IMG/VR virus record: IMGVR_UViG_3300046532_001253
Location: 1 to 61,767 of that record
Reading direction: 5' to 3' (one strand)
Origin: a virus
Length of the DNA: 61,767 bases
In this document: in pieces, positions 2,072 to 52,179 of the stretch
How the letters are laid out: each line of letters opens with the position of its first letter
Position numbering within the stretch: the stretch's first letter is position 1
Made by a program: the position numbers and the translations under genes
Notes under the pieces: model-generated
Told to the model about the DNA's origin: nothing
The model's input: only the letters and a program-made list of their open reading frames with translations
Database searches by the model: none

Positions 2072-2175
2072 TATTTGTATATAAACGGATCTCGTTTACG
2101 TAACTCTTTTAATTTTTTACGATATGAAATCTCAAGTTTTACTCTATTAATTATATTTTTAACCCATTGAATCAT
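2071..2175 (-). CDS. 34-aa basic small protein
   Basis: A short ORF between the two SGNH-like genes. It begins MIQWVKNIINR and ends KRDPFIYK: an amphipathic N-terminus followed by a strongly basic helix. The ATG at 2175 lies inside the end of the upstream SGNH-like gene, 5 nt after GGAG-type sequence in that gene. The stop TAA shares its last A with the ATG of the next gene. This perfect chaining, with no wasted base on either side, argues it is translated. A tiny protein with this kind of basic, DPFIYK-ending sequence seems familiar to me from cyanophage genomes, but I cannot verify that here. Function unknown; it could be a membrane-proximal or nucleic-acid-binding peptide. Confidence 0.6.
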   Translation of the reverse strand: MIQWVKNIINRVKLEISYRKKLKELRKRDPFIYK

Positions 2176-3031
2176 TGAATTTCTCCTGGAGTAACTCTGC
2201 GGCGGCCGCGTGGGCCTCTTCGAGTGGATGCGTTGTTCCTACTTTATATTTATTTTCTACAGCCCATTGATAAAATCCTCTTGGATTGGATGTCTCGTGT
2301 TCGTTATCTCCCTTAGGGAACCACCACCACGCACCAAAGTCTATACTGTTATATAAACCTAGTATAGTATAATCAATCTTAATGTCGTGTTCACTAATAG
2401 CAGGTTCGTCAAAGCCATCCGGCATGTTGTTTTTTTTGCCATTAGTTCCAGCAGATATTGTCCAATTATCAAGTATACAATTATCTGCTCCTGTAAACAA
2501 GTAAGGAATATTATGTACTTTTAAATAGTTCTGTAACATGACTATTTCTTTGAGTGTATTATACATTTCCCAATATTCATCTATTGCAATATTTTTATAA
2601 AACATTTTTGCAAACTTCTCTACTCCAGTAACTCGGTCTAGTTCCTGTCGTTTAAGATGATATTCAAGAATACTGTCATCCGGATTGTGGAACGAACTTT
2701 GAATATCATCAGTGGTCTGCAGATTCCAGGCACTAAAGTCGCACCAAGGAGTCTTTTTATTCCTTGTATTGTATGCAAATCTAAATTCATAGCGAGACGG
2801 AAAAGTCCATTGCACTAAAACAAACTCCGGTTTAAATTCTTCACAACCAGCGATAGTAGTACGACTTATTGCTGTATTACTAGCACCTGGGTTTGCTATA
2901 CAAATATATTCTTTGCTACTTTTCTTGCTTAACAGAGCAGGATATGTAGTTTGACTATTATGTTTCCCGCCATAAGTATCTTTCAATTCACTACCGTAAA
3001 TGAAACTGCACCCATTTGCAAGAACTGTCAT
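2159..3031 (-). CDS. SGNH-hydrolase-like protein (second copy, larger)
   Basis: Read from the ATG at 3031 this is a 290-aa protein. An in-frame TTG at 3049 would add six residues, but the ATG is preferred because it overlaps the stop of the 30-aa ORF upstream (ATGA). The N-terminus TVLANGCSFIYGSEL parallels the GDSFTFGEEL block of the neighbouring 231-aa protein. NPGASNTAISR is the block II equivalent, VQWTFPSRYEFR the block III equivalent, and HPLEEAHAAAAE near the C-terminus the block V equivalent. The catalytic Ser (in GCS) and His (in HPLEEAH) are therefore retained. Two divergent SGNH-like enzymes in tandem suggest two different acyl or glycan substrates. Confidence 0.65.
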   Translation of the reverse strand: MTVLANGCSFIYGSELKDTYGGKHNSQTTYPALLSKKSSKEYICIANPGASNTAISRTTIAGCEEFKPEFVLVQWTFPSRYEFRFAYNTRNKKTPWCDFSAWNLQTTDDIQSSFHNPDDSILEYHLKRQELDRVTGVEKFAKMFYKNIAIDEYWEMYNTLKEIVMLQNYLKVHNIPYLFTGADNCILDNWTISAGTNGKKNNMPDGFDEPAISEHDIKIDYTILGLYNSIDFGAWWWFPKGDNEHETSNPRGFYQWAVENKYKVGTTHPLEEAHAAAAELLQEKFNDSMG

Positions 3032-3120
3032 GATACCGTGACCATCCAAGGTTCACCAAATACAATAAGGTGAATAGTGTTGACAACTATTGCCCCAACT
3101 AACAATTCCAAATAACCCAT
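3028..3120 (-). CDS. 30-aa single-TM small protein
   Basis: A short ORF with a good ribosome-binding site (AAGGA, 8 nt before the ATG at 3120), placed 4 nt after the stop of the 357-aa gene. Its TGA overlaps the ATG of the SGNH-like gene (ATGA). The sequence is one hydrophobic helix (GYLELLVGAIVVNTIHLIVF) with few charges, as expected for a membrane-anchored micropeptide. The ribosome-binding site plus the start/stop overlap are the case for a real gene; without comparative data the function is unknown. Confidence 0.5.
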   Translation of the reverse strand: MGYLELLVGAIVVNTIHLIVFGEPWMVTVS

Positions 3121-3124
3121 AATA

Positions 3125-4198
3125 TTATTCCTTACTACTGTGATCGTAACCAGCTTTTAATTTATCAATTTGTATTGCATAATAATCCTTATCATACCAA
3201 CAATAATCAAAATTGCATGCGGCTTCTCGTGTTTCAATTCTTATAATGTCTAAATGTTCGCCGATGATCTGCCAAACTGTTTCAGGGTGGTCTGTACCAA
3301 AACTACCTACTAAATCAACTTGTCCTACGGAATGATATCCGTAGTTGTATTGAGGATCAGTATGTTTAAATCCTTGACGTTCTAGCCAAATTGCATATTC
3401 ATCCATACGTTGTTTATGCCACGGGTAATCACCAGTATAGGTAATGTCACGTGACCATTCAATATCAAATTCGCCGCTATAGTATCGCAAGTGTGTAATC
3501 TCTTCGCACATTGCTTCTGTTAAGTCTGGAGCGCCTTCATCGACAAACACTTCGTATAATGTTTTTCCTACTTGAGTCCAGTGTTGGTAGACAGTACCAA
3601 AGGTACGATCATATCTTTCCTTATTGAATTCCCTTTTATGTTCGGTGGGGTATTCAAATCGAGGAGCGTTTAAAAACGTTGTGATCTGAGACGGTCGCAT
3701 CCACTGCGGCGCCTCGATTTGTTTCTTCTGGCTCAGCATTAATGATTCTGCTTCATGACATAAATTGTTTAACTGCCTAATAGCAAATTTAGTTTCGTAA
3801 TTTGCTTTCTTATACCAGTCACTCAATCCCCATGCACTACCTTGTAGTACTTCAAAATGATTATGCAACCTGTTCATAATATCTTGATTTGGGTTCATGC
3901 CATCTCTGAGTGTTTTTGGTGTAAATATTTCTCGTATCGTATACTCCTTATTAAAGAAATTATTAATGGTATCTTTAGCCCATTGTAGTTCTTTACATAT
4001 AAAGTCAATATCTCTAGTAGTGTCTGGAAAACCTAAGAACAAAAAATTCTTTTCTAAGTATGCGTTATTTAAGAGCAAGCCGTTTAACGCACCTAACCAG
4101 CTTTGTCCCATTGTAGTTTTCTCAACATCAATATGAAAGTCAACTGTTTTATTTTTTAAAACTGGATTTCTTAATACTACTTTAACTTCATGTGTCAT
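3125..4198 (-). CDS. Conserved hypothetical protein, 357 aa
   Basis: I do not recognise a catalytic family. The ATG at 4198 overlaps the TGA of the upstream radical SAM gene (ATGA) and follows GGGAG at proper distance, so I prefer it over the upstream TTG at 4213. The protein is soluble and rich in aromatic and charged residues (many Trp, Tyr and His), without signal peptide or membrane segment. A notable part is the block around residues 265-300 with PWHKQRMDEY, YGYHSVGQVDLVGSFG, then an acidic/His stretch GEHLDIIRIETREAACNFDYCWYD. The conserved-looking His, Asp and Cys could bind metal. Its place directly behind the sixth radical SAM gene suggests it acts in the same pathway as accessory protein, substrate carrier or a further enzyme. 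Confidence 0.6.
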   Translation of the reverse strand: MTHEVKVVLRNPVLKNKTVDFHIDVEKTTMGQSWLGALNGLLLNNAYLEKNFLFLGFPDTTRDIDFICKELQWAKDTINNFFNKEYTIREIFTPKTLRDGMNPNQDIMNRLHNHFEVLQGSAWGLSDWYKKANYETKFAIRQLNNLCHEAESLMLSQKKQIEAPQWMRPSQITTFLNAPRFEYPTEHKREFNKERYDRTFGTVYQHWTQVGKTLYEVFVDEGAPDLTEAMCEEITHLRYYSGEFDIEWSRDITYTGDYPWHKQRMDEYAIWLERQGFKHTDPQYNYGYHSVGQVDLVGSFGTDHPETVWQIIGEHLDIIRIETREAACNFDYCWYDKDYYAIQIDKLKAGYDHSSKE

Positions 4199-5493
4199 AT
4201 CTTCTCCCACCAATCTAATACGTCAGGTCGAGTGGATAAGATGTCCTTCATCGTCAGCGACTGAGTTCTAATTTGTTCTAATTTTAAAATACGTTCTTTA
4301 CCTTTACGAAGCCCTGCTTCGTATTGGTCTGGCCATTGCTCAGCGAATGTAGGTCTATCCTTTAACTGTACCAGTACATCATTCATTGCTCCTGTGCTAG
4401 ACTTACTTAATTCGTCTAGCCACGGATGTAATAGTTCACGTGGTAATGCTAAAGGAGATAATATAATGTCAGGACTAAAACTAAAGACTACTTTAGCAAG
4501 TACACCAACACCTAATCTTTCTGCGAGTTCTTGGATCGGTTCGACTTCAAAGAGTCCCGGTAAGGTAAGAGTGAAGTCAATACGAACTTGGCGCGGGTGG
4601 TTGCTGATCTCAATTCCTTTATTGAAGTTTTCAAGCCACTTGTTAAAATCAAGACCTGTTCGAATATACTCTCCAATTCGTCCCGTTCCGTCGATGCTTG
4701 CACATATTTGCCAATCACGTAGCCTAGACAAAATGTCAGTATACAGATTAGTGCCACCATAATCAATGCGACTAAGATTAGTGTTGTATCTTGCGTAAAC
4801 ATTTGGACCATCTCCTAGTTCTATAATGCGTTTCATATACCTCCAATGCTGTTCATACATTAAAGGTTCTCCGCCGACCCAGTACACCTCTTCTACCCGA
4901 TGTTCCTCAACTGCGTCTGAAAATTCTTTTTCAATTTGTGTGGACTGAAAGTCCTCAATTTGTTTTTTAATAGCAGGTTTCATCCAATTGTTCTTTGGAT
5001 CATCCCAGTTAATCATATTATATTTTCTTTGCTCAGCTTCCCAGCTTGATGAAAGCATGTCGCCGCACATACGACATTTAAAGTTGCATAGGTTTGAGAA
5101 TCTGTAATCCCAACTTACAGGTTTTAACGAAGTAGTGCCGTTTGAATCAGTGTTATCCCATATTGACTCATATTTATGACCAAACAATTGATTAAAATAA
5201 CTTCTATATACATCAGTGTTTAATAACTTACTAGTACACACGTCACACTCACTAAGCTCTTCACCTGCCATCATCCGACGTCGAACACTTTTCATATGTT
5301 CGCTATTCCAGTGTTCATCTAATGTTATTGGCGTATATGTTCCTGTGCCAGATTTAGTATCAATATATTGCTCAAAATTTTGTGCAGGCTCACGACTAGC
5401 ACAACACAAACGTCTTTCAGTTTGTGGACTTAAATACGTATGAGTCCACGGTGCCATACACAAATTTTCAGGTTTTTTATCTGGTTTTATCAT
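4195..5493 (-). CDS. Radical SAM protein with N-terminal twitch domain (rSAM 6 of the cluster)
   Basis: A 432-aa protein. The N-terminal auxiliary Fe-S region has Cys12 (LCMAPW), Cys30-Cys31, Cys83 and Cys86. The radical SAM motif CNFKCRMC gives Cys136, Cys140 and Cys143 for the 4Fe-4S cluster that cleaves S-adenosylmethionine. VGGEPL at about 207 is the SAM-amino-binding GGE motif. This order (auxiliary cluster before the TIM barrel) matches the 'twitch domain-containing radical SAM' family, a permutation of ordinary SPASM enzymes. The ATG at 5493 directly follows the stop of the oxygenase-like gene. Related enzymes modify peptides or act on small molecules; the substrate here is unknown. 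It differs from its neighbours in the CDVC pair context and a longer insert between twitch and barrel. Confidence 0.9.
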   Translation of the reverse strand: MIKPDKKPENLCMAPWTHTYLSPQTERRLCCASREPAQNFEQYIDTKSGTGTYTPITLDEHWNSEHMKSVRRRMMAGEELSECDVCTSKLLNTDVYRSYFNQLFGHKYESIWDNTDSNGTTSLKPVSWDYRFSNLCNFKCRMCGDMLSSSWEAEQRKYNMINWDDPKNNWMKPAIKKQIEDFQSTQIEKEFSDAVEEHRVEEVYWVGGEPLMYEQHWRYMKRIIELGDGPNVYARYNTNLSRIDYGGTNLYTDILSRLRDWQICASIDGTGRIGEYIRTGLDFNKWLENFNKGIEISNHPRQVRIDFTLTLPGLFEVEPIQELAERLGVGVLAKVVFSFSPDIILSPLALPRELLHPWLDELSKSSTGAMNDVLVQLKDRPTFAEQWPDQYEAGLRKGKERILKLEQIRTQSLTMKDILSTRPDVLDWWEKI

Positions 5494-5494
5494 A

Positions 5495-6001
5495 TTAAAA
5501 ATTTACATATAAAGATTTTCGAATAACATTGTCGGGAACCTTACCTTTCATGCCGTGTTGTATTGTGTGCGAATTTAATAACATTAGTCCGGTATTTACT
5601 TCATAGTCAACTTCGTACTTGATATCATTTTCGTACCAGTAAGTACCCATTGATTCACTGTTACTTTCTTCTCCTAAGTATAACATAATAATATTACGAA
5701 CACTATCAGGATCATCATGATGCATTGCGTTTTCATACCCAGCATAATCAAACCATATTTCAACAGCTTGCACCTTTTGTTTGTCGATGTCGAGGCTAGA
5801 AAATCTACCTGCTATTTCATTGCGTACAATGTCACGATCAGGCTCTAACCACCACGACTCTCTGTAGCCTCCAAGATGCCATGCTTCAGTAATAGGGTTA
5901 AATTGTGTTGTATGATTAAACAACTTGTTTTTAACACCATTGGGGATATTGTGTTTTAACTTGTATCCGTTTGCGGATATTTGTTGTACTTCACGTATCA
6001 C
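5495..6001 (-). CDS. 2-oxoglutarate/Fe(II)-dependent oxygenase-like protein
   Basis: A 168-aa protein. MHHDDPDS (about residues 93-100) supplies the His-x-Asp pair, HTIQHGMKG (about 145-153) the distal His, and RKSLYVNF at the C-terminus the Arg that binds 2-oxoglutarate. The spacing of about 52 residues between HxD and the distal His is normal for prolyl-hydroxylase-like phage enzymes. It starts with GTG at 6001 inside the end of the preceding radical SAM gene and is followed immediately by the next one, so the oxygenase is sandwiched between two radical SAM genes. It probably hydroxylates the same substrate or an intermediate. T4-like marine phages often carry 2OG oxygenases, but most stand alone. 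Confidence 0.8.
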   Translation of the reverse strand: MIREVQQISANGYKLKHNIPNGVKNKLFNHTTQFNPITEAWHLGGYRESWWLEPDRDIVRNEIAGRFSSLDIDKQKVQAVEIWFDYAGYENAMHHDDPDSVRNIIMLYLGEESNSESMGTYWYENDIKYEVDYEVNTGLMLLNSHTIQHGMKGKVPDNVIRKSLYVNF

Positions 6002-7211
6002 TGTAACCCATTGCCTCTGCTATTTGTGTATGTGTTTCTAAGAAATTTTCCTTACGATATGCGTCGGTCTGTTTCATTAGTCTAACAAATCGACTGCCGT
6101 CACTAGTTGGACCGTTCTTAATAAACTGTATTAAGTTATCAATCTCAATTTTATCACGCGGAATAAATTCATCTTGTGATAATCTATCCAGTACTAATTT
6201 CTTTGCATCCGATGTCATTTCACCAATATTCTGATGTCGTGGATCATGTAACATATTAAAGTGATGATAATCAAAGTCTTGTGTATTCATCCAATCACAT
6301 AAATCCTTTAGGTAATAGACGTTCTGAATATTTACAGTTAAACAAATCTGCAATTTAATATTAGTATTACGGTTACGTAATTCTCTAAAGCGTTTTATGT
6401 TCTCACATACCTGATCCCATTTTGCACCATAACGTTCATATTCAAATCGATTACCAACGTTATCAATACTAAATGCAATCTCCACATACTTAAATTCTTT
6501 CCACAAATGTACAAATTCTTCAGGATACTTTGTGCCATTTGTATTATAATGTATTTCAATGTTCTTTGCAAAACCGCCATCAACGGCTTGTTGTAATAAT
6601 TGAAAATGTTCTTTGATCATAAACGGTTCGCCGCCGGTAAACTCAAAGTACTTAACGTTAGGGAGTAATTCAATCATATTCTCCCAAAATACTTCAGACT
6701 CACGAGGCCATTTACCATCCTTTAACCATTTATAAGCAATATGGTCTTTAGCATCTCTATTCTTATATTTGCGTATATAATCAATTTCTTCTCTGGCCCA
6801 TTTACTGCTAGACCAAGATCCACATATACGACATTTAAGATTACAAATGTTTCCAAGTTTTAAATCAATAAACCAAAGACTGTCAGGGTTAGTATCTGTA
6901 AAATCTAATAAAGGTCGTTCATGTTTAAAACGCACATCAGTGTTCATGCGTTTACTTGTGCGGCCAGCATCTTCTTCATCCCAACAACGACTACATGTTT
7001 TAGGCTTTAAGCCACTCAAAAATTGCTTGCGTAGATCAATCATGTATTCACTTTTATAGCTATCTTCTAATGTATGTTCTTTAAGTGTATACTTTGACCC
7101 GTCGGGTTTTGTAATCTCATCCATTGCTAAACAGCAAGGTCGAGTAGTGCCCATTGGTGTAGTTTCCATACTAACCCAAGGTAACATACAAATTGTGTTA
7201 GGCAGTGACAT
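5991..7211 (-). CDS. Radical SAM protein with N-terminal twitch domain (rSAM 5)
   Basis: A 406-aa protein. Twitch cysteines: Cys8 (ICMLPW), Cys26-Cys27 (RPCCLAM), Cys73 and Cys76 (CSRCW). Radical SAM cysteines: Cys123, Cys127 and Cys130 (CNLKCRIC). GGEPF is at 193-196. The segment EEDAGRTSKRM after the second twitch pair closely parallels EEESGTVSKRQM in the radical SAM protein at 50650-52158, so the two belong to one subfamily although encoded on opposite strands. The start at 7211 follows a strong AGGAG. The C-terminus overlaps the oxygenase-like gene by 11 nt. It is expected to bind one SAM-cleaving and at least one auxiliary cluster; substrate unknown. Confidence 0.92.
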   Translation of the reverse strand: MSLPNTICMLPWVSMETTPMGTTRPCCLAMDEITKPDGSKYTLKEHTLEDSYKSEYMIDLRKQFLSGLKPKTCSRCWDEEDAGRTSKRMNTDVRFKHERPLLDFTDTNPDSLWFIDLKLGNICNLKCRICGSWSSSKWAREEIDYIRKYKNRDAKDHIAYKWLKDGKWPRESEVFWENMIELLPNVKYFEFTGGEPFMIKEHFQLLQQAVDGGFAKNIEIHYNTNGTKYPEEFVHLWKEFKYVEIAFSIDNVGNRFEYERYGAKWDQVCENIKRFRELRNRNTNIKLQICLTVNIQNVYYLKDLCDWMNTQDFDYHHFNMLHDPRHQNIGEMTSDAKKLVLDRLSQDEFIPRDKIEIDNLIQFIKNGPTSDGSRFVRLMKQTDAYRKENFLETHTQIAEAMGYSDT

Positions 7212-8535
7212 TTTTTAACTCCTGGAATTCAGGGAATGTTGCCCAGAAGTCTTCATTACGAATCTCATCTAACTTCGTTACTTCCTCTTTAAACCGCCCC
7301 CAGTTTTGTTTATGATTGTCCTGACTATTCATAAAATTAATAGCACTTTCAAATCCTGTTGTTGCTCTACGTAATTGATCCTGTGGATCTAACCATTCAA
7401 TGTGCTTACGATACGCCGGCTCAATTACATTACGTTTAAACTCTTCTGGGAAGATATCAATACGATACCAGTCTGGACTCTGACAGATGTTTACATTAAA
7501 ATCCTGTGGCTTAATAAACCCTTTATCAACCCAGTCTCTATGGAAGTCTAATACGTGTAGTACATTCTGACTTGTAACTGTAGCACTAACATAAAAATCA
7601 ACATGTGGTACTTCTGCCATCATGCGTACTCTGTTATCTTCAGTTTGTTTCCAATTTGCACCCTTACGTATTAGTTCTGCTTGCGGACCCATACCATCAA
7701 GACTAGCACCTACGTTTACTGTTTCAAACTTGTTCCAATAATCAAATACATGCTTTTTCTTATAACGCATTTCTGAGAAGTTAGTATTGTACACTAAACG
7801 TACATCAGTCTTACCTAAGTCAATTAACCGATCAAGTAAGTAGTAATGCTCTTTCATGATTAGAGGTTCGCCACCAGCAAAGTACACTTGTTCTAAATGC
7901 GGAATATGCTCTTCCATCTGAGCTAACATTCCATCTTCGTCGCCTGTGGTGTACTCTACTCGTGCCATGTCTCTTTTCAACACATCAGGCACCTTTCCGT
8001 ATAGTTTTACGTGGTCGTTGAACCAATTACTGCTAAAAATCGGGCCACAACTACGGCATCTAAAGTTACATAGGTTACTGAAGCGTATATCCCAATATCG
8101 GAGTTTAAACTCAGGATGTTCGCCATCTTCGTGCGTTTGATCTACTTCAGGGATTAAATGCCCGTAGTTACGATTGGCATCATTACGCATTGAAAAGAAG
8201 CCATTTTGCTCTTGCTCGTAGCACTTAGTACATTCTTTACAAGGTTTATCTTCAAGCATATTTTTACGCATAGTTTTATACGCATCCTGATTCCAAACCT
8301 CTGTCATTGTGTTTTTACGAAGATCGCCAATTGGATGCCAGTAGTCGCCTAAACAACACGGATAAACCCTACCATCTGGAAATGCATGCATATGCACCCA
8401 CGGCATCATACAAAAGTTATCTTCTTTGACCAACCTATCATATTGCTGTTTAGTTAATTCTTCTGGTTTAACAAAATGTGGAGTTCTTTCGTTATAGTCA
8501 TATTTTTCATAAAAGTCTTTTTTACTTGAGTCCAT
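7198..8535 (-). CDS. Radical SAM protein with N-terminal twitch domain (rSAM 4)
   Basis: A 445-aa protein with about 35 extra residues before the twitch domain. Twitch cysteines: Cys42 (FCMMPW), Cys60-Cys61 (YPCCLGD), and Cys99, Cys102 and Cys105 (CKECTKC), one Cys more than most siblings. Radical SAM cysteines: Cys156, Cys160 and Cys163 (CNFRCRSC). GGEPL is at about 221. The phrase GDLRKNTMTEVWN between the pairs is the helix linking the auxiliary-cluster ligands, as in SPASM proteins. The ATG at 8535 follows GGAGTGGTATA and overlaps the upstream gene by 14 nt. The extra Cys could allow a fully Cys-ligated auxiliary cluster (inference). Confidence 0.92.
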   Translation of the reverse strand: MDSSKKDFYEKYDYNERTPHFVKPEELTKQQYDRLVKEDNFCMMPWVHMHAFPDGRVYPCCLGDYWHPIGDLRKNTMTEVWNQDAYKTMRKNMLEDKPCKECTKCYEQEQNGFFSMRNDANRNYGHLIPEVDQTHEDGEHPEFKLRYWDIRFSNLCNFRCRSCGPIFSSNWFNDHVKLYGKVPDVLKRDMARVEYTTGDEDGMLAQMEEHIPHLEQVYFAGGEPLIMKEHYYLLDRLIDLGKTDVRLVYNTNFSEMRYKKKHVFDYWNKFETVNVGASLDGMGPQAELIRKGANWKQTEDNRVRMMAEVPHVDFYVSATVTSQNVLHVLDFHRDWVDKGFIKPQDFNVNICQSPDWYRIDIFPEEFKRNVIEPAYRKHIEWLDPQDQLRRATTGFESAINFMNSQDNHKQNWGRFKEEVTKLDEIRNEDFWATFPEFQELKNVTA

Positions 8536-9877
8536 TATACCACTCCGCTAATTGGGGAAATGTAGAAGCAAAATCTTTGTGTCTACGGTTGTCGTATTGT
8601 GCATAAAACTGTTTAAAATCATTATGCAGTTTTGGCATTTCGAATGAATCGCTATGTGGAGTTTTTACAACATCTAAGTAATCTATTAGACGTTGCACAT
8701 GATTACGTTCATGTTCGTGTAGCACTTTGCTATTCTTATGACGTTCAATCCAATCCTGCAATCTATTCTTGTGTTTCGTTCGAATCTCATCGGGCAATAC
8801 TAATGCACTTTGGAAACTTGGAAATCGTAAAATGTTTAATGTAAAATTAGGATAGTCTCTACCGTATTGGTTCTTGTAACCAACCATAAGATCTAGAAAT
8901 TCCGGAAGGCTTTCTAAACACAATGCATTAATAGTACACATGCAATGTAATCCACGTAGCTTACCGCCACGCATCAACAATTCCATATTTGATGTCCACT
9001 GGTTCCAGTCTAATCCGTCACGTATGTATTCTGCATGCGGCTCAAGGCTTTCGTTGCTAGTATACAGGTCTAACTCAACGTGTTCGCTTGCTTCTAATAG
9101 CCGTTCTACTTTATCGTTATCAAATCCTAAATTACTATTAATTGCTAAACGTGTCTTAGACTTTCCTTTGTTTATTTTAAACCAATCTAATAGATCCCAG
9201 GTATGTCCGCTCATTAATGGCTCGCCGCCTGTAATACGTAGCTCTTGAAGTGTTTCGTGTAAGTCACTTTCCCACCATTTAAAAAATGCATCTACGTATG
9301 GATTTGATTCGTTATACTTAAACAAACTGGCTTCTTTATGTTCGTGCGTAAAGTGATTGCGACCGTCGCTAACTAGATCCGTATAAGCACCGTTCTTCTT
9401 AATATCTTTAGCCCATGTTGTTGAAAACGCTGGGTTACAATAACTACATGCAAACTGACAAGTTCTATCAAATGCAATTTCAAGTGTACGCAAATTAACA
9501 TCGGCATCAGGAGGAGTATCGTATGCATTTTGTAATTCTTTATCTGAATAGATAACGCTCTTATAAACTCTATCGCTAATGTTGTCCCTGCCAATGTCTT
9601 CAATCTTCCAGCAATACTCACAGCCCTTAGGTCGTACACCGTCGAGCATATCAGCACGGTCTTGTTTTTTCTGTGAACTATTATGCAATGCTTTAGGATT
9701 AAACTTAACTTCTTCAGCGTCTATTTTATGTGCTGGTGGATGATGACAACTTGTAGTCATCCCCGATCCAAGCCATATAGTAGCATTATACCATTTAGCT
9801 CCACAGAAGCTATCACTTTTAGGATCAAGCACTCTTCTTCTAAACGCCAAATCAGTTTCATTTATTAATTTAGGCAA
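8522..9877 (-). CDS. Radical SAM protein with divergent N-terminal twitch domain (rSAM 3)
   Basis: A 451-aa protein starting with TTG at 9877; the preceding GGAGA at 6 nt supports this rare start. The twitch region is of a distinct type: Cys25 (FCGAKW), Cys44 followed by HHPPAHKIDAEE, then Cys86 and Cys89 (CEYCW). There is no CC doublet; the Cys-His-His-Pro-Pro motif replaces it. Radical SAM cysteines: Cys140, Cys144 and Cys147 (CQFACSYC). GGEPL is at 217-220. The rSAM 1 protein at 10948-12354 shares the same CxHPPxHKIDA and CSYC features, so the two are close paralogs. The His residues could serve as cluster ligands or in substrate binding (inference). Confidence 0.9.
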   Translation of the reverse strand: MPKLINETDLAFRRRVLDPKSDSFCGAKWYNATIWLGSGMTTSCHHPPAHKIDAEEVKFNPKALHNSSQKKQDRADMLDGVRPKGCEYCWKIEDIGRDNISDRVYKSVIYSDKELQNAYDTPPDADVNLRTLEIAFDRTCQFACSYCNPAFSTTWAKDIKKNGAYTDLVSDGRNHFTHEHKEASLFKYNESNPYVDAFFKWWESDLHETLQELRITGGEPLMSGHTWDLLDWFKINKGKSKTRLAINSNLGFDNDKVERLLEASEHVELDLYTSNESLEPHAEYIRDGLDWNQWTSNMELLMRGGKLRGLHCMCTINALCLESLPEFLDLMVGYKNQYGRDYPNFTLNILRFPSFQSALVLPDEIRTKHKNRLQDWIERHKNSKVLHEHERNHVQRLIDYLDVVKTPHSDSFEMPKLHNDFKQFYAQYDNRRHKDFASTFPQLAEWYNGLK

Positions 9878-10961
9878 AGTGTTTCTCCATTTCAGATATA
9901 TAGTTTACTATCTTTGTGCCGCGATGTCTATCTCTAATGGTAATCATATCTAAGAATTCTTTCCAGTTTTCTTCATTAGAGTTATCCAGTGTATTGATAA
10001 TTCCTTCTAAACCATTTTGTGCTTCGTAATCAACAGCACGAAGTCTGTCTTGTGCAAGTTGAGCTAATTCCTTTGGCAAGCACACAGGCGCTAGGTAATG
10101 AGGCTTTGTTAATATATCAAACTGCACAAAAAGCTCTTCCTGTTTAGCCCACTCTAATAATCTATCAATGTATAATACATTTAAATTTTGCACGACTGTG
10201 TTTACAAAAATATTAGCATCAGGTATTTGACGCATCAACTCTATATTCTTAGTTATAATATTCCATTTGCTTGGATATCTTATGTAATGGTTAAGTTCTG
10301 CATATCCGTCAATACTTAAACACATCTTAATATCGTGTGCTGACAATACATCAACCCAACTTTGATCAAATTTAGTTCCGTTAGTTGCAATCATTATTTC
10401 TTTGCGTTGTGTTAATGATGAAAGAATATCACGAACCCAAGGCAACATAAACGGTTCGCCTCCCCTTAGGATAAAGCTATCACTGTGTTCCATTATTTCA
10501 AGTATTTTGTAATTGTCTTTTTCATTCCAATTGTATTTTTTTTGATCCCATACCTTGCCAAACAGTTTGTTTTCTTCAACTAAAAATTGGCTACTAGACT
10601 GCGGGTTACACATCAAGCATTTCAAGTTACATACATTTGATAACTGTATTTCCCAATCTAATGGTTGTTCTGTTTGTTCTGTTATGTCACTCCAACGTTC
10701 ATTGCTGTACTGCCGAAAACTTTTTGATCCTTGTTCTTCTTGTTTATAGCAACGAACACATTCATCACTATGTTCATTGTTCTTGATACGCTTTCTTAGA
10801 TCATTGAGATAATTGCTATTCCACCATTCGTCAACAGAGTGCGTTTTCATATTAAAATCTGTTGTTACAAAACTACGACAACAAGGCATAAAACGTCCTT
10901 GGGTGTCTACCAGACTATGCATAAACGGACGCACACAAAATTTATCGTTATCTTTGAGCAT
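9870..10961 (-). CDS. Radical SAM protein with N-terminal twitch domain (rSAM 2)
   Basis: The shortest of the cluster, 363 aa. Twitch cysteines: Cys9 (FCVRPF), Cys27-Cys28 (MPCCRS), Cys68 and Cys71 (CVRCY). Radical SAM cysteines: Cys111, Cys115 and Cys118 (CNLKCLMC). GGEPF is at 167-170. FCVRPFMHS replaces the usual W of xCxxPW by Phe. It lies between the two paralogous CHHPP/CYHPP-type enzymes (rSAM 1 and rSAM 3) and overlaps both (14 and 8 nt). That interleaving suggests the order 1-2-3 is kept because the products work together. Substrate unknown. Confidence 0.92.
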   Translation of the reverse strand: MLKDNDKFCVRPFMHSLVDTQGRFMPCCRSFVTTDFNMKTHSVDEWWNSNYLNDLRKRIKNNEHSDECVRCYKQEEQGSKSFRQYSNERWSDITEQTEQPLDWEIQLSNVCNLKCLMCNPQSSSQFLVEENKLFGKVWDQKKYNWNEKDNYKILEIMEHSDSFILRGGEPFMLPWVRDILSSLTQRKEIMIATNGTKFDQSWVDVLSAHDIKMCLSIDGYAELNHYIRYPSKWNIITKNIELMRQIPDANIFVNTVVQNLNVLYIDRLLEWAKQEELFVQFDILTKPHYLAPVCLPKELAQLAQDRLRAVDYEAQNGLEGIINTLDNSNEENWKEFLDMITIRDRHRGTKIVNYISEMEKHFA

Positions 10962-12354
10962 AATATCTACCTTGTTTCCAAAACTCTTCCATTTCTGGAA
11001 ATGTCTTTAAGAAATCTGTGCCTCTACGTTTATCATGTTCAGTAAAAAACCTATAAAAGTCTGCTCTATTTTTCTGTAAGTATTCTGGTGATAATTCTGA
11101 TCCTTTACGCATCCAAGTAATATCTCTACGCATGCGTTGTACTTCGTAATCTTTAAATCCATGAAATGGATCATCTTTAGTTTCTAAATTCTGTTCCATC
11201 CAGTCAGCAACATCTGTTAATTTATCAGCATAAGGCCAAGGAAGTATCTGCAAACTCTGCCAGGCAGGTTGTCGTAGTAAAGGAGTATCAAACCATACAC
11301 GTTGATATGTTGTACTAAATGATTTACGTAAATCAAGTATCCATTCTAGTTGCTTCCTAATACCAGATACACTTAAATTATTCATTGTAATAATAAATGT
11401 TAAGCTATTACGTTCCGGAACTTCAGTTAGGTACCTATGAACATTGTTTGCCATGCGAGGCCAACTAAGTCCGTGTCTAATGTATTCAGCATGAGCAGGA
11501 ATGCCGGTATCTAAACTAACATATTGCATAAAATGCTCAATTTGAGACTTGCATAATTTCTTTACGTAACCTATATATTTTTCAAACAGTTTATCTTCTA
11601 CACTAAAGTTACTAGTTACATTTAAGTGTAACTCAGGATTTGGCAATGCTAATACATAATCAAACACACGATAGGTATTATTATCCATTAATGGCTCGCC
11701 TCCGGTCATTCGAAAATGCTTTAGGTGTGGATATAATGAGGGCCACCATTCCCAAAACGCATCTACGTATGGATTTTCTTCTCTGTGCGGAATTGGTCTA
11801 TTACGACCAGTAAAATGCTCAGGTGCATTATGCGGAGTACTAGTAGGATATGCTCCGGCCTTTTTAATCTCTTTCATCCAGGTAGTGCTAAACTGCGGAC
11901 TACAATATGAACAAGCTAAGTTACACGCATTGTTAAAATTAACCTCAACATAACTAGGCTTCCAATCTTCGTCGCCTGAGCTATTCTTAATTGCTTCGTA
12001 ATCACTAGCCGCCCAAGGTTCGCCGCTTCGGTAATGTCTATCACTTAGGTTACCCGAATCTTCGATGTTCCAACAATACTGACATTCTGATGGTCGCTCA
12101 CCTTTGAGCATTATTTTACGTTGCTCTTTTTTATGCTCTGTGTTATGTAATGCATCAGGATTAATCTTTACTGCATCGGCATCAATCTTATGCAATGGAG
12201 GATGGTAACAACTGTTGTTTAGACCAGTAGGCAAATGAAAACTTACTTGTTTCCATTTAGCCAGACACAATCCTTTACCAAGGTTGTCTTTCATAAATTC
12301 TGCACTAGCCATAAACTTACTTTTATTGCCTACGGACTCATCACCTTTATTCAT
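10948..12354 (-). CDS. Radical SAM protein with divergent N-terminal twitch domain (rSAM 1)
   Basis: A 468-aa protein, first radical SAM gene of the operon. Divergent twitch: Cys30 (LCLAKW), Cys49 followed by YHPPLHKIDADAV, then Cys91 and Cys94 (CQYCW). Radical SAM cysteines: Cys144, Cys148 and Cys151 (CNLACSYC). GGEPL is at 218-221. Long runs parallel rSAM 3 at 8522-9877 (HPPxHKIDAxxVKxNPxALHN; STTWxKxIKKxGAY), so one arose by duplication of the other. The ATG at 12354 overlaps the end of the small membrane protein gene. The DUF59 Fe-S assembly gene lies just upstream, which fits the heavy Fe-S demand of the six enzymes that follow. Confidence 0.9.
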   Translation of the reverse strand: MNKGDESVGNKSKFMASAEFMKDNLGKGLCLAKWKQVSFHLPTGLNNSCYHPPLHKIDADAVKINPDALHNTEHKKEQRKIMLKGERPSECQYCWNIEDSGNLSDRHYRSGEPWAASDYEAIKNSSGDEDWKPSYVEVNFNNACNLACSYCSPQFSTTWMKEIKKAGAYPTSTPHNAPEHFTGRNRPIPHREENPYVDAFWEWWPSLYPHLKHFRMTGGEPLMDNNTYRVFDYVLALPNPELHLNVTSNFSVEDKLFEKYIGYVKKLCKSQIEHFMQYVSLDTGIPAHAEYIRHGLSWPRMANNVHRYLTEVPERNSLTFIITMNNLSVSGIRKQLEWILDLRKSFSTTYQRVWFDTPLLRQPAWQSLQILPWPYADKLTDVADWMEQNLETKDDPFHGFKDYEVQRMRRDITWMRKGSELSPEYLQKNRADFYRFFTEHDKRRGTDFLKTFPEMEEFWKQGRYYAQR

Positions 12355-12637
12355 AGTTAATCATTCCAATCGCTACAAGATATCCTAATATATTAACACA
12401 TGCAAAGTAGATTGTCAAGAGAAAAGGCCAAACTAATTGTCTACGTTTATATGCTACAATAGCTAAAACACTACCAATAAAAAACCCAGGATATACTAGT
12501 GTCATATCTGGGTTGTTAGCAGTAACCGCAAGTATTAGACTTGCTCCAACAGTAAATACAAAACTAAGCATCTCATAATAAAATGCTGTTTTATCACTGC
12601 GATAACTATTAATCCAAAATTCTTTTACTTTATTCAT
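12347..12637 (-). CDS. Small integral membrane protein (3 TM)
   Basis: About 96-98 aa. An ATG at 12643 gives MVMNK; the second ATG at 12637 is equally possible and I use it. After an amphipathic head (KEFWINSYRSDKTAFYYEM) come three hydrophobic helices: LSFVFTVGASLILAVTA, LVYPGFFIGSVLAIVAY and FLLTIYFACVNILGYLVAIG. The loop KRRQLVW carries positive charge, predicting which side faces the cytoplasm. No catalytic residue is recognisable. It sits between the DUF59 gene and the first radical SAM gene. Together with the 80-aa membrane protein at the far end of the operon, it hints that the pathway product or substrate is membrane-linked (inference). Confidence 0.65.
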   Translation of the reverse strand: MNKVKEFWINSYRSDKTAFYYEMLSFVFTVGASLILAVTANNPDMTLVYPGFFIGSVLAIVAYKRRQLVWPFLLTIYFACVNILGYLVAIGMINYE

Positions 12638-12936
12638 CACCATCCCATTATCATCTTTGTTTCTTCAGAAACGCTGTCCATAGTAAACGGAGGATCAAAT
12701 GTAGTAACTACTTCTACGTTGAGAACTCCAGGTGCATATCCTGCTTTCTTAATATCGTCTACAATTTGATCCGCAAACGGACAAAATGCACTTGTTAATG
12801 TATGTGTAATTTCTACCCACTGATCTGCTTTATTAATCTTAATATCATATATCAATCCAAGATCGTATATATTAATGCTTATTTCAGGGTCAAAAACTTC
12901 ACGTAAATTTGCTATAATCTGCTCTTTGTCTATCAT
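12637..12936 (-). CDS. DUF59 / SufT-PaaD-MIP18-like Fe-S cluster assembly protein
   Basis: Read from the ATG at 12936, which follows GAAGGATGG, this is 99 aa; an ATG at 12969 would add 11 residues overlapping the upstream gene. The sequence is a compact single DUF59 domain: start IDKEQIIANLREVFDPEIS, then IYDLGLIYDI, the conserved Cys in TSAFCPFADQI, and the C-terminal VTTFDPPFTMDSVSEETKM, a DPPW-like signature of the family. SufT, PaaD and eukaryotic MIP18/CIA2 help insert Fe-S clusters into client enzymes. It lies just upstream of six Fe-S-rich radical SAM genes. The likely role is loading clusters on these phage enzymes, which is inference from context. Confidence 0.88.
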   Translation of the reverse strand: MIDKEQIIANLREVFDPEISINIYDLGLIYDIKINKADQWVEITHTLTSAFCPFADQIVDDIKKAGYAPGVLNVEVVTTFDPPFTMDSVSEETKMIMGW

Positions 12937-12937
12937 A

Positions 12938-13870
12938 CTACCATCCTTCAATTCGACGAATAACGTCAATCTCTTTTGTCATCATATCTAAATTGTTATG
13001 ACCCGTTTCGTAATGATACTTAAAAAATTGGCTTGTTGATGCATCTAATTCAACAATGTTTAATGCTAATCTGTTATTAAGCATTTCAGTTACTTGTTCC
13101 ATACTATTATGTCTACCAACGCTAGTAGTCTCTAAGTATTCAGCATAGACTTCTGCAAGTTTATCAAAATCTTGTACCTGTGTAAAATCCCAGTCTGTTA
13201 ACATTGTTAGATAGGTTCCATATCTAGCACCGTTAATTGCTTCTTCTCCGTGTTCTACATCACGTCCTATAGTTTGCCAAATCTGCAAGTGGTCGAGGTT
13301 ACGTTTCTTAGCATTATCATCGAACTCTTGCAAACTTGGCTTGCGTCCACGATCTAAGCACATTTTAACACCTTCTCGGAACCCTGCCCGCCAGGCATGA
13401 AATGGGCTACCGTTAGGATATGTAGTGCTGTAGCAGTTGTGCATAGGGTAATAAGTTTCCTCGAAACAGAATTCTACGGCTGTTTCGTGACTCCCGTCAC
13501 TTGCTTCGTGGGTACGCATATTGTTAACAAATCCTTTACTCCATACACTCATACCACCATTACCGTACATCAGTCCGTTAATGTGATTACGTGCTTTCCA
13601 TCTGAATGCACAATCGTTATTAGGAGTTTCAATTTGTAAATTAAAAAAGTCTGCATCTGGAATATTGTCGCCGTCGATTAATACAAAAAAATTAGTATCA
13701 CTTGTTTCAGCCGCGGCCTTATGTGCGGCATCACTGCCCTTTATTCCGTCAACACGTTTAGCCCATGGAACAATATTTAGAATCTTAATCCAAAACTCTT
13801 CCTTTTGCGGTTCGTCATAGCTTAGATAGATACAATCTAAATCTGCTATATCAGTTATACTTAAATCCAT
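12938..13870 (-). CDS. Glycosyltransferase-like (GT-A / nucleotide-diphospho-sugar transferase type) protein
   Basis: A 310-aa protein. The core around residues 55-75 reads FFVLIDGDNIPDADFF, a DxD-type motif at the end of a beta strand as in metal-dependent GT-A glycosyltransferases. DCIYLSYDEPQ near the N-terminus and KGSDAAHKAAAET before the DGD look like the nucleotide-binding part. NHINGLMYGNGGMSVWSKGF follows, where an acceptor loop is expected. It overlaps the upstream 97-aa gene by 20 nt and has a GAGAAGG ribosome-binding site. Family placement rests on the DGD region only. It could add a sugar to a phage- or host-made acceptor. Confidence 0.6.
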   Translation of the reverse strand: MDLSITDIADLDCIYLSYDEPQKEEFWIKILNIVPWAKRVDGIKGSDAAHKAAAETSDTNFFVLIDGDNIPDADFFNLQIETPNNDCAFRWKARNHINGLMYGNGGMSVWSKGFVNNMRTHEASDGSHETAVEFCFEETYYPMHNCYSTTYPNGSPFHAWRAGFREGVKMCLDRGRKPSLQEFDDNAKKRNLDHLQIWQTIGRDVEHGEEAINGARYGTYLTMLTDWDFTQVQDFDKLAEVYAEYLETTSVGRHNSMEQVTEMLNNRLALNIVELDASTSQFFKYHYETGHNNLDMMTKEIDVIRRIEGW

Positions 13871-14144
13871 AATATTGACCTTCTCCAGCGTCGGTTAAAA
13901 TTCCTGCATGATTTTTAGCAGACCTATACTTACTAACTTCTTTTTTTTCTAATAGAAATTTATTAGTGTTAGTATCAATGCGAGTTAACTTACCGTCAAT
14001 TACTCGCATACTTGAATAATTTGGTTTGTTATAGAGTGCTTTACTAATCCGAATATACCGACCAGGTAACTCTTCGTTAACTGACATACGTGTGGGTACG
14101 CCTGTTTCATCATAGTATAATCGATATTCAAAGTTGGTTTTCAT
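13851..14144 (-). CDS. Conserved hypothetical protein, 97 aa
   Basis: A small soluble protein of alternating beta-type segments (FEYRLYYDETG, RYIRISKALY, LTRIDTNTNKF), ending GEGQYYGFKYN. No motif is recognised. It overlaps both the preceding and the following transferase-like genes (17 and 20 nt), so it is firmly inside the operon and possibly a partner of those proteins. Confidence 0.6.
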   Translation of the reverse strand: MKTNFEYRLYYDETGVPTRMSVNEELPGRYIRISKALYNKPNYSSMRVIDGKLTRIDTNTNKFLLEKKEVSKYRSAKNHAGILTDAGEGQYYGFKYN

Positions 14145-14970: not shown

Positions 14971-15706
14971 TGATTATCCTTTCAAACTGCTCAGACTGTA
15001 AATAGAGCTTGTCATGGAAGTGTATAGATGTATATGGTAACACGTATGCTCCATTATCTGTAACTACTTTAATCCAATCATCTATGATAATTTCATTAAC
15101 TTTACCTTGTATTGTTAATAACGGCCACGGAATCTTTGTAGCGTCAGACTCTACATAACCGTTAACCAATCTATCAGCAATAGTAAATGCAACATCATTG
15201 CGAAAGTTTCCCATCTGTATCCGGTAGAGTTCTCTATAGTAAGGATAATTGTCTTGCACCATTTTAGCAAAGGTAAACAAATCTTTTGATTTCTGTGTTT
15301 TATTAAATGCAATTACTGTAGCCCACAACATTGGGCTAATTGCAACTTCTCCTAATGTATCAATAGCATTAGTATTAACATAGACATTAGTTTTCGCTAT
15401 GCTATAATCTGTTACAGTATCTAGTACTTTAAGGAGATTATCATCAAATATTAAATAGTCTCCGTCTAACACTAGTGTTTGGTCATATGGAGATAAGTCG
15501 TATGCCTCACACCTTCCGGCGTTTTGCCATTCAACTACTTTACCGTCAAGATATCGTTTATTATTAGATTTACTACCACTAACTATAGTAGTAGGTAATC
15601 CAAGATATCTTTTAATTAGTTTAGCATTAATATTTGCAATTTTAACATAGTCAATTTCTTTTGTATTAGTTGCAAATATCAATACACCTCTAGACTTTTC
15701 TGACAC
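14960..15706 (-). CDS. Glycosyltransferase-like protein, 248 aa
   Basis: It starts with GTG at 15706 after AGGAACTTAAAA. GVLIFATNTKEIDYVKIAN at the N-terminus and LPTTIVSGSKSNN are followed by YDQTLVLDGDYLIFDDNLL (about residues 73-91), a clear DxD context for metal and sugar-nucleotide binding. ISPMLWATVIAFNKTQKSKDLF corresponds to the strand-loop after the active site. It ends with ITNAT-like overlap into the next transferase gene. Two adjacent proteins of this kind plus the 310-aa protein suggest at least three sugar (or related) transfer steps in the operon. Confidence 0.65.
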   Translation of the reverse strand: MSEKSRGVLIFATNTKEIDYVKIANINAKLIKRYLGLPTTIVSGSKSNNKRYLDGKVVEWQNAGRCEAYDLSPYDQTLVLDGDYLIFDDNLLKVLDTVTDYSIAKTNVYVNTNAIDTLGEVAISPMLWATVIAFNKTQKSKDLFTFAKMVQDNYPYYRELYRIQMGNFRNDVAFTIADRLVNGYVESDATKIPWPLLTIQGKVNEIIIDDWIKVVTDNGAYVLPYTSIHFHDKLYLQSEQFERIINAT

Positions 15707-16013
15707 TTTTAAGTTCCTGATATTGTGTATGCCAAGTATTCATTACCGCTTGGTAACGTTCTTTAGCTAATAATACTAGTTCACTACGTTTAATTGGAAC
15801 AGGATTATTATATGTATCTTCAAGAAACATATCTTCGGTATGCCAGCTTTCTAAAAAAGCAATCAAAGTAGGAGTAACATAAAACAATCCACTATTGTAA
15901 GTTACATGTAACTCAGCCTGGATTGATTCACGTAATGCTTTCTTATTAGTCTGAAACTTGGTAGATGCTTTAACTCTATCAACTAAGTTCTGGTTCACGT
16001 TTTGCTTCAACAT
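15690..16013 (-). CDS. Conserved hypothetical protein, 107 aa
   Basis: A mostly helical, charged protein without cysteine. Recognisable pieces are VTYNSGLFYVTPTLIAFLESW and ELVLLAKERYQAVMNTWHTQYQEL, which look like a small phage-protein fold with a C-terminal helix; no enzymatic motif. The ATG at 16013 lies inside the end of the acyl carrier protein gene (35-nt overlap), and its stop overlaps the next gene start. Coupling to the ACP gene may mean it acts on or with the carrier protein, but this is only context. Confidence 0.6.
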   Translation of the reverse strand: MLKQNVNQNLVDRVKASTKFQTNKKALRESIQAELHVTYNSGLFYVTPTLIAFLESWHTEDMFLEDTYNNPVPIKRSELVLLAKERYQAVMNTWHTQYQELKSVRKV

Positions 16014-16275
16014 TTATTGTTTTCGATTCTATTGCATTATTAATAAATTTAACGGCGTCATCTACGTCATTAAAGGTCGCGGCTTCGTGGTCTTCGATTT
16101 CAATTTCGAATTCTTCTTCAAATGCCATTGCTAATTCAATATTGTCTAGGCTGTCTGCGCCAAGGTCGTCTACGAAACTTGAGTCAGTATCAACAGCCGT
16201 GGGCTCAACACCTAGGTGTACTTCTAAAATATTTTTCACTCGAGTCAGAGTGTCTTGGTAACTCGGTTTGACCAT
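15979..16275 (-). CDS. Acyl carrier protein (phosphopantetheine-binding)
   Basis: A 98-aa protein. DLGADSLDNIELAMAFEEEF (about residues 37-56) is the classic ACP helix II; Ser42 of DSL is the 4'-phosphopantetheine attachment site. FEIEIEDHEAATFNDVDDAV continues as in bacterial ACPs, and the overall acidity is typical. A C-terminal tail of about 18 residues beyond the ACP core (SKTINVEAKREPELS) is unusual. It is the first gene of the accessory operon, 25 nt downstream of the likely transcription start, with ribosome-binding site AGGAG. A carrier protein implies thioester-bound intermediates, which makes the operon look biosynthetic. Host holo-ACP synthase would have to load the cofactor, since none is seen here. 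Confidence 0.93.
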   Translation of the reverse strand: MVKPSYQDTLTRVKNILEVHLGVEPTAVDTDSSFVDDLGADSLDNIELAMAFEEEFEIEIEDHEAATFNDVDDAVKFINNAIESKTINVEAKREPELS

Positions 16276-16306: not shown

Positions 16307-16335
16307 AGTATATAACAAAAAACCCACTCTGTCAA
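16307..16335 (-). promoter_or_regulatory. Sigma70-type promoter of the accessory operon
   Basis: On the minus strand TTGACA (16330-16335) is followed by exactly 17 nt and then TATACT (16307-16312). This is a perfect -35 box and a -10 box with one mismatch to TATAAT. The start of transcription would be near 16300, leaving a leader of about 25 nt with AGGAG before the ACP gene. This is unlike the NATAAATA late promoters used by the structural genes, so host RNA polymerase should read the operon, probably early in infection. Confidence 0.8.
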
Positions 16336-16345
16336 GTGGGTTTTT
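16317..16345. terminator. Bidirectional intrinsic terminator overlapping the promoter
   Basis: ACCCACT and AGTGGGT form a 7-bp stem around the 6-nt loop CTGTCA, extended by flanking A5/T5 pairs and ending in a run of six T on the minus strand and five on the plus strand. It lies 33 nt after the end of the last tail-fibre gene (stop at 16378) and so ends the late structural transcript. The -35 box of the next promoter lies in the loop and the edge of the stem. Confidence 0.85.
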
Positions 16346-16377: not shown

Positions 16378-17301
16378 CTAGCCAGTTGTAACACCGCCCC
16401 ATACGTTTGAAAGGTTACTTGTTGATGGTGGGCGTACTGTTAATGTTGATGTAACTGAAAAGTTAATTGAATCATCAAAGTTATCAGCGGCTGTATCAGT
16501 AAAAGTAAGTACTATAGTAACAATCTGTCCAACATCTCCATTGGATCCTTGTACACCATTAGTCTTAATGAATACTTGAATATCGTTGCTGTTATAATCG
16601 CCAACGCCATTTGCACCGTACACTCTTAGTATAGATGCATTAGAAGTTCCAGCATTCCAGTAACCTAGAGCAGTGTTTGAAGAGTTAACTGTGCCGCCCG
16701 AGCCTGTTCTACTGTTTGTTGCTTGACCAATAATAATACTACCAAGGTTAGCAACTAGTGCAACCCATGCAGTACCTTTAGCGTTACCAGACGTATTTGA
16801 AGCTGAGAGGTTCCAAATTAGTTTTCCGCCTGCGTTAAAGAAGTAACGTGCTTGGTCCGCACTAGCAAATGTTGCTGTACGTGTAATTGATTGTGAACCT
16901 GTATTAATTGCTGTTGCACTACTGCCTGCGGCGGCAACGTCTGATCCGTTTGAAGCAAAGTTTAAACGGTTGTTAAATCCATTAGTAACCGATGTACTTA
17001 AAGTACTTAAGAAAGTAATAGTATTACCAGCACTTGGTTGCGTAAGTCCTGAACCAGATCCTGCTTGATGTGAAAGAATTGAATCAATACGTGCAATTAA
17101 TGTTGCCCACTGTGTTGCTGTTACAGTATCACTACCGCCAGTAACTGTTGACAATGTTGTTGATTGTCCGTATCCTTTATTTCCGCTTCCTACACCCCAG
17201 ACAGTATTAATGTTTGCTGTGTTGTGGCTTACAGCCGCTCCACCTTGTGCAAAAGTATTATAATCGGTTGCTTGGATTAATCCACCTTGGCTATATGTCA
17301 T
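16378..17301 (-). CDS. Virion structural / tail-fibre-associated protein, 307 aa
   Basis: A Ser/Thr/Asn/Gly-rich protein without Cys. The N-terminus MTYSQGGLIQATDYNTF is a recurrent start of phage tail-fibre-type proteins. The middle has many short beta repeats with TAxNTGSQSITRTATF and KLIWNLSASNTSG motifs, and the C-terminus ends STLTVRPPSTSNLSNVWGG. Low complexity and beta-rich makeup fit a surface-exposed adhesin or fibre. It is the last gene of the late tail cluster, ahead of the terminator. AAGGG precedes the ATG. Confidence 0.6.
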   Translation of the reverse strand: MTYSQGGLIQATDYNTFAQGGAAVSHNTANINTVWGVGSGNKGYGQSTTLSTVTGGSDTVTATQWATLIARIDSILSHQAGSGSGLTQPSAGNTITFLSTLSTSVTNGFNNRLNFASNGSDVAAAGSSATAINTGSQSITRTATFASADQARYFFNAGGKLIWNLSASNTSGNAKGTAWVALVANLGSIIIGQATNSRTGSGGTVNSSNTALGYWNAGTSNASILRVYGANGVGDYNSNDIQVFIKTNGVQGSNGDVGQIVTIVLTFTDTAADNFDDSINFSVTSTLTVRPPSTSNLSNVWGGVTTG

Positions 17302-52158: not shown

Positions 52159-52179
52159 GAAGGATGCTATAATTATACA

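Follow-up and report, generated by a model that had tools for sequence, protein, structure and literature searches.

The window analyzed here, the whole of IMG/VR record IMGVR_UViG_3300046532_001253, is a linear fragment of a phage genome, 61,767 bases long. On its minus strand, behind the tail-fiber genes, it carries an operon centered on six genes for radical S-adenosylmethionine (SAM) enzymes, r1 to r6 (positions 4195 to 12354). Five of these enzymes, three glycosyltransferase (GT)-like proteins, and a conserved protein adjoining r1 recur in one fixed order in other phages, and their conservation argues strongly that they serve a shared multistep pathway. We propose that this operon of jumbo T4-like phages tailors a glycan, most likely one on the host surface; taken as a whole, we give that account a probability of roughly 0.4.

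Radical SAM enzymes and their conserved order

A preliminary description, made from the sequence alone, had pointed to six tandem open reading frames (ORFs), each with CxxxCxxC and GGE motifs and an N-terminal set of Cys residues. All six do have these features, and all exceed the curated cutoff (170 bits) of NCBIfam NF033640 (N_Twi_rSAM), scoring 277 to 400 bits: r1 (4195 to 5493; 299 bits), r2 (5991 to 7211; 345 bits), r3 (7198 to 8535; 400 bits), r4 (8522 to 9877; 306 bits), r5 (9870 to 10961; 278 bits), and r6 (10948 to 12354; 320 bits). Two plus-strand proteins, p2 (50650 to 52158; 324 bits) and p5 (54942 to 56237; 227 bits), bring the window to eight members at 227 to 400 bits. Nine twitch-type proteins had been counted; the ninth, p4 (53936 to 54952, plus strand), is a radical SAM protein without the N-twitch, reaching 31 bits against NF033640 and 28.1 bits against PF04055 (just under the cutoff) and lacking GGE. 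Nor do all six tandem ORFs overlap, as had been stated: direct overlap is confined to r2 through r6, and a 168-amino-acid ORF (5495 to 6001) parts r1 from r2. NF033640 gave no match over its cutoff in 14 control genomes, and the window proteins reach at most 45.5 bits against the Viperin-like family NF038283 (cutoff, 180 bits), of which they are not members.

A neighborhood search of phage genomes and metagenomes, which the preliminary description had suggested, recovered the same collinear set in 104 other loci. A scan with r3 yielded 32 loci, about two-thirds of them with the same gene order; scans with r1, with the GT-like partner g12938, and with v16378, the virion-type gene immediately upstream of the operon, each yielded >540 related stretches, and keeping the 80 best from each scan biased the set toward close relatives. 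All 104 loci that hold the five core enzymes (r1, r2, r3, r4, and r6) are collinear; they come from uncultured aquatic phages and, by r4 identity, form 84 clusters at 95% and 56 at 80%. Read from the tail-fiber end, beside which the operon always lies, the order is GT, GT, g12938, r6, (r5), r4, r3, r2, (x), r1, g4, with optional positions in parentheses; 12 of 1407 neighboring pairs break it. When loci were anchored on r1, we found r3, r4, and r6 in 62 of 62 with ≥9 kb upstream, r2 in 78 of 79, and g4 in 71 of 71 with room for it. Anchoring on v16378 placed GT14960, GT14128, and g12938 in 61 of 61 loci with ≥8 kb downstream and r6 in 60 of these; the small protein g15690 was present in 60 of 61 eligible loci. 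At most direct junctions, the stop codon of one gene overlaps the start codon of the next, as in translational coupling.

The residues expected to hold Fe-S clusters are practically invariant. Three core and four N-terminal Cys residues are invariant in the alignments of r1 (45/45), r2 (60/60), r3 (88/88), r4 (70/70), and r6 (88/88), the ligands of r5 are kept in all 7 aligned sequences, and in a wider set the N-terminal Cys pattern is kept in 717 of 732 distinct core orthologs. Scattered or degenerate genes had been named beforehand as the finding that would speak against the multistep pathway proposed in the preliminary description; neither is the case (62/62 and 71/71 loci, as above), and the Fe-S ligands are kept in the alignments. 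A further Cys residue outside both ligand sets is invariant in r1 (C264) and r2 (C290) and present in 68 of 70 r4 sequences (C320). Some radical SAM epimerases use an extra Cys as hydrogen donor, and the conserved residues in r1, r2, and r4 may serve as a lead to such a role, though not as a test of it.

In a radical SAM tree, built by a quick method and containing long branches, r1 and r4 each form a single clade, and r2, r3, and r6 nearly do. We rejected recent tandem duplication as the origin of the array because of the single r1 and r4 clades, the departures elsewhere involving long branches. When the window is compared with its nearest relative, the ratio of nonsynonymous to synonymous substitution rates (dN/dS) lies at 0.035 to 0.09 for r1 to r6 (0.10 at most). 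The paralogs are thus distinct groups of long standing that purifying selection strongly maintains: within this single operon, NF033640, a family without an assigned reaction, splits into no fewer than five stable orthologous groups. The optional r5 differs in that its dS to the nearest relatives (L010 and L014) is about 0.3 (0.29), versus 1.0 to 2.1 for the other five enzymes, which suggests recent exchange of this gene. Large relatives, on contigs of 190 to 357 kb, encode 7 to 21 N-twitch proteins per record.

Partner genes and optional slots

The three GT-like proteins are encoded, like all genes in this section, on the minus strand. GT14128 (14128 to 14970) is GT8-like, its profile matching glycogenin structures with an E value of 1e-5; GT14960 (14960 to 15706), also GT8-like and with a DxD motif, matches GT14128 (hhalign, 99.1%; E = 6e-19). 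The most conserved partner, and part of the operon core, is g12938 (12938 to 13870). A profile search of PDB returned no match for it, and its GT-A-like assignment comes from an AlphaFold2 (AF2) model of moderate confidence (pLDDT 78) whose Foldseek matches are mostly GT-A enzymes, with E values from 1.7e-3. Distant relatives of g12938 occur in actinobacteria (L051 to L059) and adjoin GT4-type and GT2-type genes where the surroundings were read.

The gene adjoining r1, g4 (3125 to 4213), encodes a protein with a fairly confident model (AF2 pLDDT 80). Profile and fold searches of PDB with it were empty, and we rejected it as a recognizable enzyme; its only matches in BFVD are uncharacterized phage proteins, one of them from Agrobacterium phage Atu_ph07. 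Two small proteins complete the GT end: g15690 (15690 to 16013), conserved over its full length in relatives, and g13851 (13851 to 14144), weakly conserved.

Other genes are optional or peripheral, and several had been named in the preliminary description. The acyl carrier protein (ACP; 15979 to 16275) is real, matching PF00550 and an NCBIfam ACP model, and rare: even counting near-identical copies, the first 33 loci have five such ORFs. The NodU/TobZ-type carbamoyltransferase (1 to 1161) is an open ORF cut by the contig end; its relative at the same place in L031 is complete and has both PF02543 and PF16861, which bears out the assignment. The supposed oxygenase, the optional ORF at 5495 to 6001, retains only the HxD...H motif of 2-oxoglutarate oxygenases and has no Pfam, NCBIfam, or PDB sequence match. 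Two SGNH-type hydrolases or acyltransferases lie between the carbamoyltransferase and g4: one (1376 to 2071) matches Lipase_GDSL_2 at 1e-4, below the cutoff, and the other (2159 to 3049) has the N-terminal motif, no Pfam match, and collinear counterparts in relatives. Between r6 and g12938 are an optional SufT/PaaD-like Fe-S assembly protein (12637 to 12969; PF01883, 7e-13; TIGR02945, 92 bits, under the cutoff of 143) and an optional small membrane protein, TM98 (12347 to 12643), which has no Pfam family and occurs in one relative only.

In relatives, the slots hold genes for an NAD-dependent sugar epimerase, DegT and class-III aminotransferases, a cytidylyltransferase, an APS-kinase-like protein, sulfotransferase-like and SGNH proteins, a hexapeptide transferase, and extra radical SAM proteins, some of them B12 binding. 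(B12-binding radical SAM proteins of ∼710 to 720 amino acids are present in divergent arrays, at 11194 to 13368 in L036 and 11247 to 13376 in L041.) A PNP/MTA-nucleosidase-type gene occupies the r2/r1 slot in six loci, including L027 (12480 to 13043) and L204 (9432 to 9998). Such an enzyme could clear the 5′-deoxyadenosine that radical SAM enzymes release, and together with the SufT-like gene it could support radical SAM chemistry. The commonest slot protein (136 ORFs; ∼345 amino acids; representative, L060 12302 to 13339) has no Pfam family and no convincing PDB relative.

Promoter, tail genes, and phage lineage

Immediately upstream, the operon always has v16378 (16378 to 17301, minus strand), and beyond that gene lies v17321 (17321 to 18865, minus strand), a tail-fiber gene by its PHROG match. 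At the junction of v16378 and the operon, an intrinsic terminator of the tail-fiber transcript (16318 to 16345; 11-pair stem and T run) overlaps a σ70-type promoter, TTGACA-17-TATACT (16307 to 16335; 11 of 12 consensus positions), both on the minus strand. Of the distinct relatives, 72 of 148 carry a terminator here (0.3% in mononucleotide shuffles) and 81 of 148 a promoter with ≥10 of 12 matches (2.5% in shuffles). ATAAATA, the core of T4-type late promoters, precedes v17321 in 108 of 116 loci (93%), versus 7.6% in shuffles, and precedes operon genes in 0 to 4% of loci. An exact search for TATAAATA gave fewer matches than chance; the signal lies instead in ATAAATA where it precedes late genes. 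Because a terminator and a σ70-type promoter stand between the tail genes and the operon, the operon appears to be regulated separately, and we infer that host RNA polymerase would read it before the late tail genes. The terminator and the promoter, and the fact that the late motif does not occur within the operon, led us to reject late coexpression with the tail genes.

Gene order from 24832 to 58706 matches that of Pseudomonas phage Ettore (Arenbergviridae, Wroclawvirus), comprising a giant virion gene, baseplate genes, a late σ factor, SbcD- and SbcC-like genes, and a baseplate hub. By the order around the giant virion gene, the baseplate genes, and SbcC, the window resembles the Wroclawvirus phages PA5oct and Ettore; in Ettore, however, radical SAM genes are missing next to SbcC, and no such operon follows the tail genes. 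The SbcC-like proteins of the window and of Ettore share 51.7% identity, and the gene is present in 20 of 24 large relatives with operon genes (54 to 68% identity in the best stretch); therefore, the carriers belong mostly to one phage lineage. In the records of L086, L112, L216, and L217, this protein is ∼110 amino acids longer and altered in its middle part. The stretch with p2, p4, and p5 (49637 to 56237) lies between and behind the SbcD- and SbcC-like genes, p2 being between them; these two genes are adjacent in Ettore, and the radical SAM genes look like insertions. A gene for a 4481-amino-acid virion protein (24832 to 38277) occupies the place of Ettore's 11.6-kb virion structural gene, and a collagen-like tail fiber with a Peptidase_G2-like C-terminal region is encoded at 22312 to 24126.

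Among 50,697 phage records, g12938, GT14128, v16378, g15690, and g4 had no match, and r3, r2, and r6 had distant matches only (Vibrio phages K566/K567 and a few others). Among genomes drawn from the classes to which two metagenome-assembled genome (MAG) seeds belong, the NF033640 cutoff was exceeded in 2 of 274 and 1 of 289 cases with the seed bins and in 1 of 273 and 0 of 288 without them, the seed copies lying on phage contigs or not having been checked further. Given this scarcity, NF033640 is largely viral within that sample. One lone N-twitch gene (L303) looks chromosomal. We rejected a cellular home for the operon, as the marine MAG contigs that carry it mostly have tail genes and look like binned phage contigs. 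Contigs of this phage type (L044 to L050) sit in MAGs labeled Rhodobacteraceae, Rickettsiales, Neomarinimicrobiota, Neisseriaceae, and Gammaproteobacteria; these assignments are most likely binning errors.

Proposed function and known arrays

In the account we favor, the GT8-like pair and g12938 would add sugar units, and the radical SAM enzymes, each with a SAM-cleaving cluster and one N-terminal auxiliary cluster, would each carry out one step, abstracting hydrogen from a separate site on the sugar or on its carrier (epimerization, dehydrogenation, or similar chemistry). Optional genes could then attach carbamoyl, acyl, or sulfo groups. The most likely target would be a host surface glycan read by the neighboring tail fiber, so that phage would no longer attach to an infected cell or to its debris; this is the weakest step. 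Because of the GTs and the sugar-type slot genes, glycan tailoring fits better than peptide or nucleobase modification. Among the substrates listed in the preliminary description, surface glycan is accordingly the best supported, though unproven, and peptides and nucleobases fit less well. Judged from the gene content, tailoring of some glycan is the best reading, at about even odds; to equate this glycan with the host receptor is a doubtful guess, to which the operon's position lends some support. The boldest version is rather unlikely: radical SAM enzymes that diversified largely in viruses would build, one step per enzyme and early in infection, a sugar structure unknown in cells and so alter the receptor glycan read by the adjacent fiber.

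Several points weigh against the glycan account. The Foldseek TM-scores of g12938 are low (0.23 to 0.37), the sulfotransferase and SGNH assignments fall under Pfam cutoffs, and the ACP and SufT-like genes, being optional, say little about the core. The σ70 site, though conserved, is a consensus match only. We saw neither a flippase nor a polymerase such as a classical surface-glycan pathway would have: beside the GTs there is no GtrA-type flippase of a phage gtr module, TM98 being the sole small membrane protein.

The strongest rival, though we consider it improbable, holds that the GTs and radical SAM enzymes put a modified glycan on the tail fiber or on v16378, tuning recognition or shielding the virion. 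Both v17321 and v16378 are invariable neighbors of the operon, v16378 is rich in Ser, Thr, Asn, and Gly, and glycosylated virions are known in other phages (cited in PMC12619734). The distances of v16378 also correlate with those of GT14960 (ρ = 0.61), a correlation confounded by common descent and neighborhood. The late-type core at the tail fiber and the σ70-type site behind the terminator indicate that virion genes and operon probably do not share one promoter.

Modification of a peptide, RiPP-like (ribosomally synthesized and posttranslationally modified), or of a host protein, with the GTs glycosylating it, seems less probable again. Most SPASM/twitch enzymes whose function is known mature peptides, which favors this alternative and counts against a glycan substrate; profile comparison also gives a weak resemblance to PapB, DynA, and others, and the S-glycosyltransferase SunS is among the Foldseek matches of g12938. 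The closed operon of overlapping genes contains no RiPP precursor gene, g15690 and g13851 not being precursor-like, although distant precursors were not searched for.

That the genes form a hypervariable island of unrelated metabolic functions near the tail fibers, with no common pathway, is already disfavored and quite unlikely. Phage host-recognition clusters are variable (PMC7029224), the slots hold many different genes, and r5 looks recently exchanged. The invariant order of the five-enzyme loci and the rarity of broken pairs speak for a common unit, if in a sample weighted toward close relatives. The nucleobases of phage DNA or tRNA are a last candidate substrate: radical SAM enzymes take part in 7-deazaguanine and tRNA pathways, and GTs of phages can hypermodify DNA (cited in PMC12619734). 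Such modification is very improbable here, as the operon and its slots contain no DNA- or tRNA-modification marker and NF033640 scores far above every QueE and MoaA model.

The preliminary description knew of no such phage system, but radical SAM arrays are on record (PMC2853527, PMC5332604, PMC7029224, and PMC12390700). The Campylobacter phages CP220 and CPt10, reported in 2010, have 11 to 12 radical SAM genes, an amidinotransferase, and a module of five genes that is exchangeable (PMC2853527). CP220 resembles the window's phage in being T4-like and in holding five radical SAM genes in one module (six here), together with two nucleotide-diphospho-sugar transferase-type genes and the amidinotransferase, with a tail-fiber gene ∼10 kb away. 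Its radical SAM proteins, in contrast, lack the N-twitch, reach 17 to 31 bits against NF033640 in the core domain only, and include no r1 to r6 orthologs, and its sugar-transferase genes have no detectable relation to GT14960 or GT14128. An amidinotransferase is absent from the window; in relatives, the g12938/r6 slot holds one that is 25% identical to that of CP220, which ties the two kinds of array together.

The remaining arrays were compared by description. The T4-like marine virus TARA_ERS488813_N000010 (2017) has 12 radical SAM genes, ATC, and paaD (PMC5332604), and is thus similar in its many radical SAM genes and a PaaD/SufT-type Fe-S assembly gene; that paper counted the genes and described no operon, orthology, or pathway. 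Pelagimyophages (2020) carry radical SAM cassettes with GTs in their variable host-recognition cluster (PMC7029224), and the phiKZ-like Aeromonas phage 332-Vera (2025) has eight radical SAM genes in its structural cluster (PMC12390700). Both sets lie beside tail fibers, as r1 to r6 do, but belong to other phage lineages. Phage radical SAM arrays are therefore already known but unexplained, and the operon described here is a new form of such an array.

For 15 years such arrays have been called highly unusual, without explanation. One of them is now a defined genetic unit that combines five conserved enzymes with three GT-like partners, has its own promoter, and always follows the tail-fiber genes in widespread uncultured jumbo phages. 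If its product is a modified surface glycan, the operon would connect host recognition and superinfection with an unusual radical chemistry on sugars and would offer a set of uncharacterized radical enzymes with a testable common pathway.

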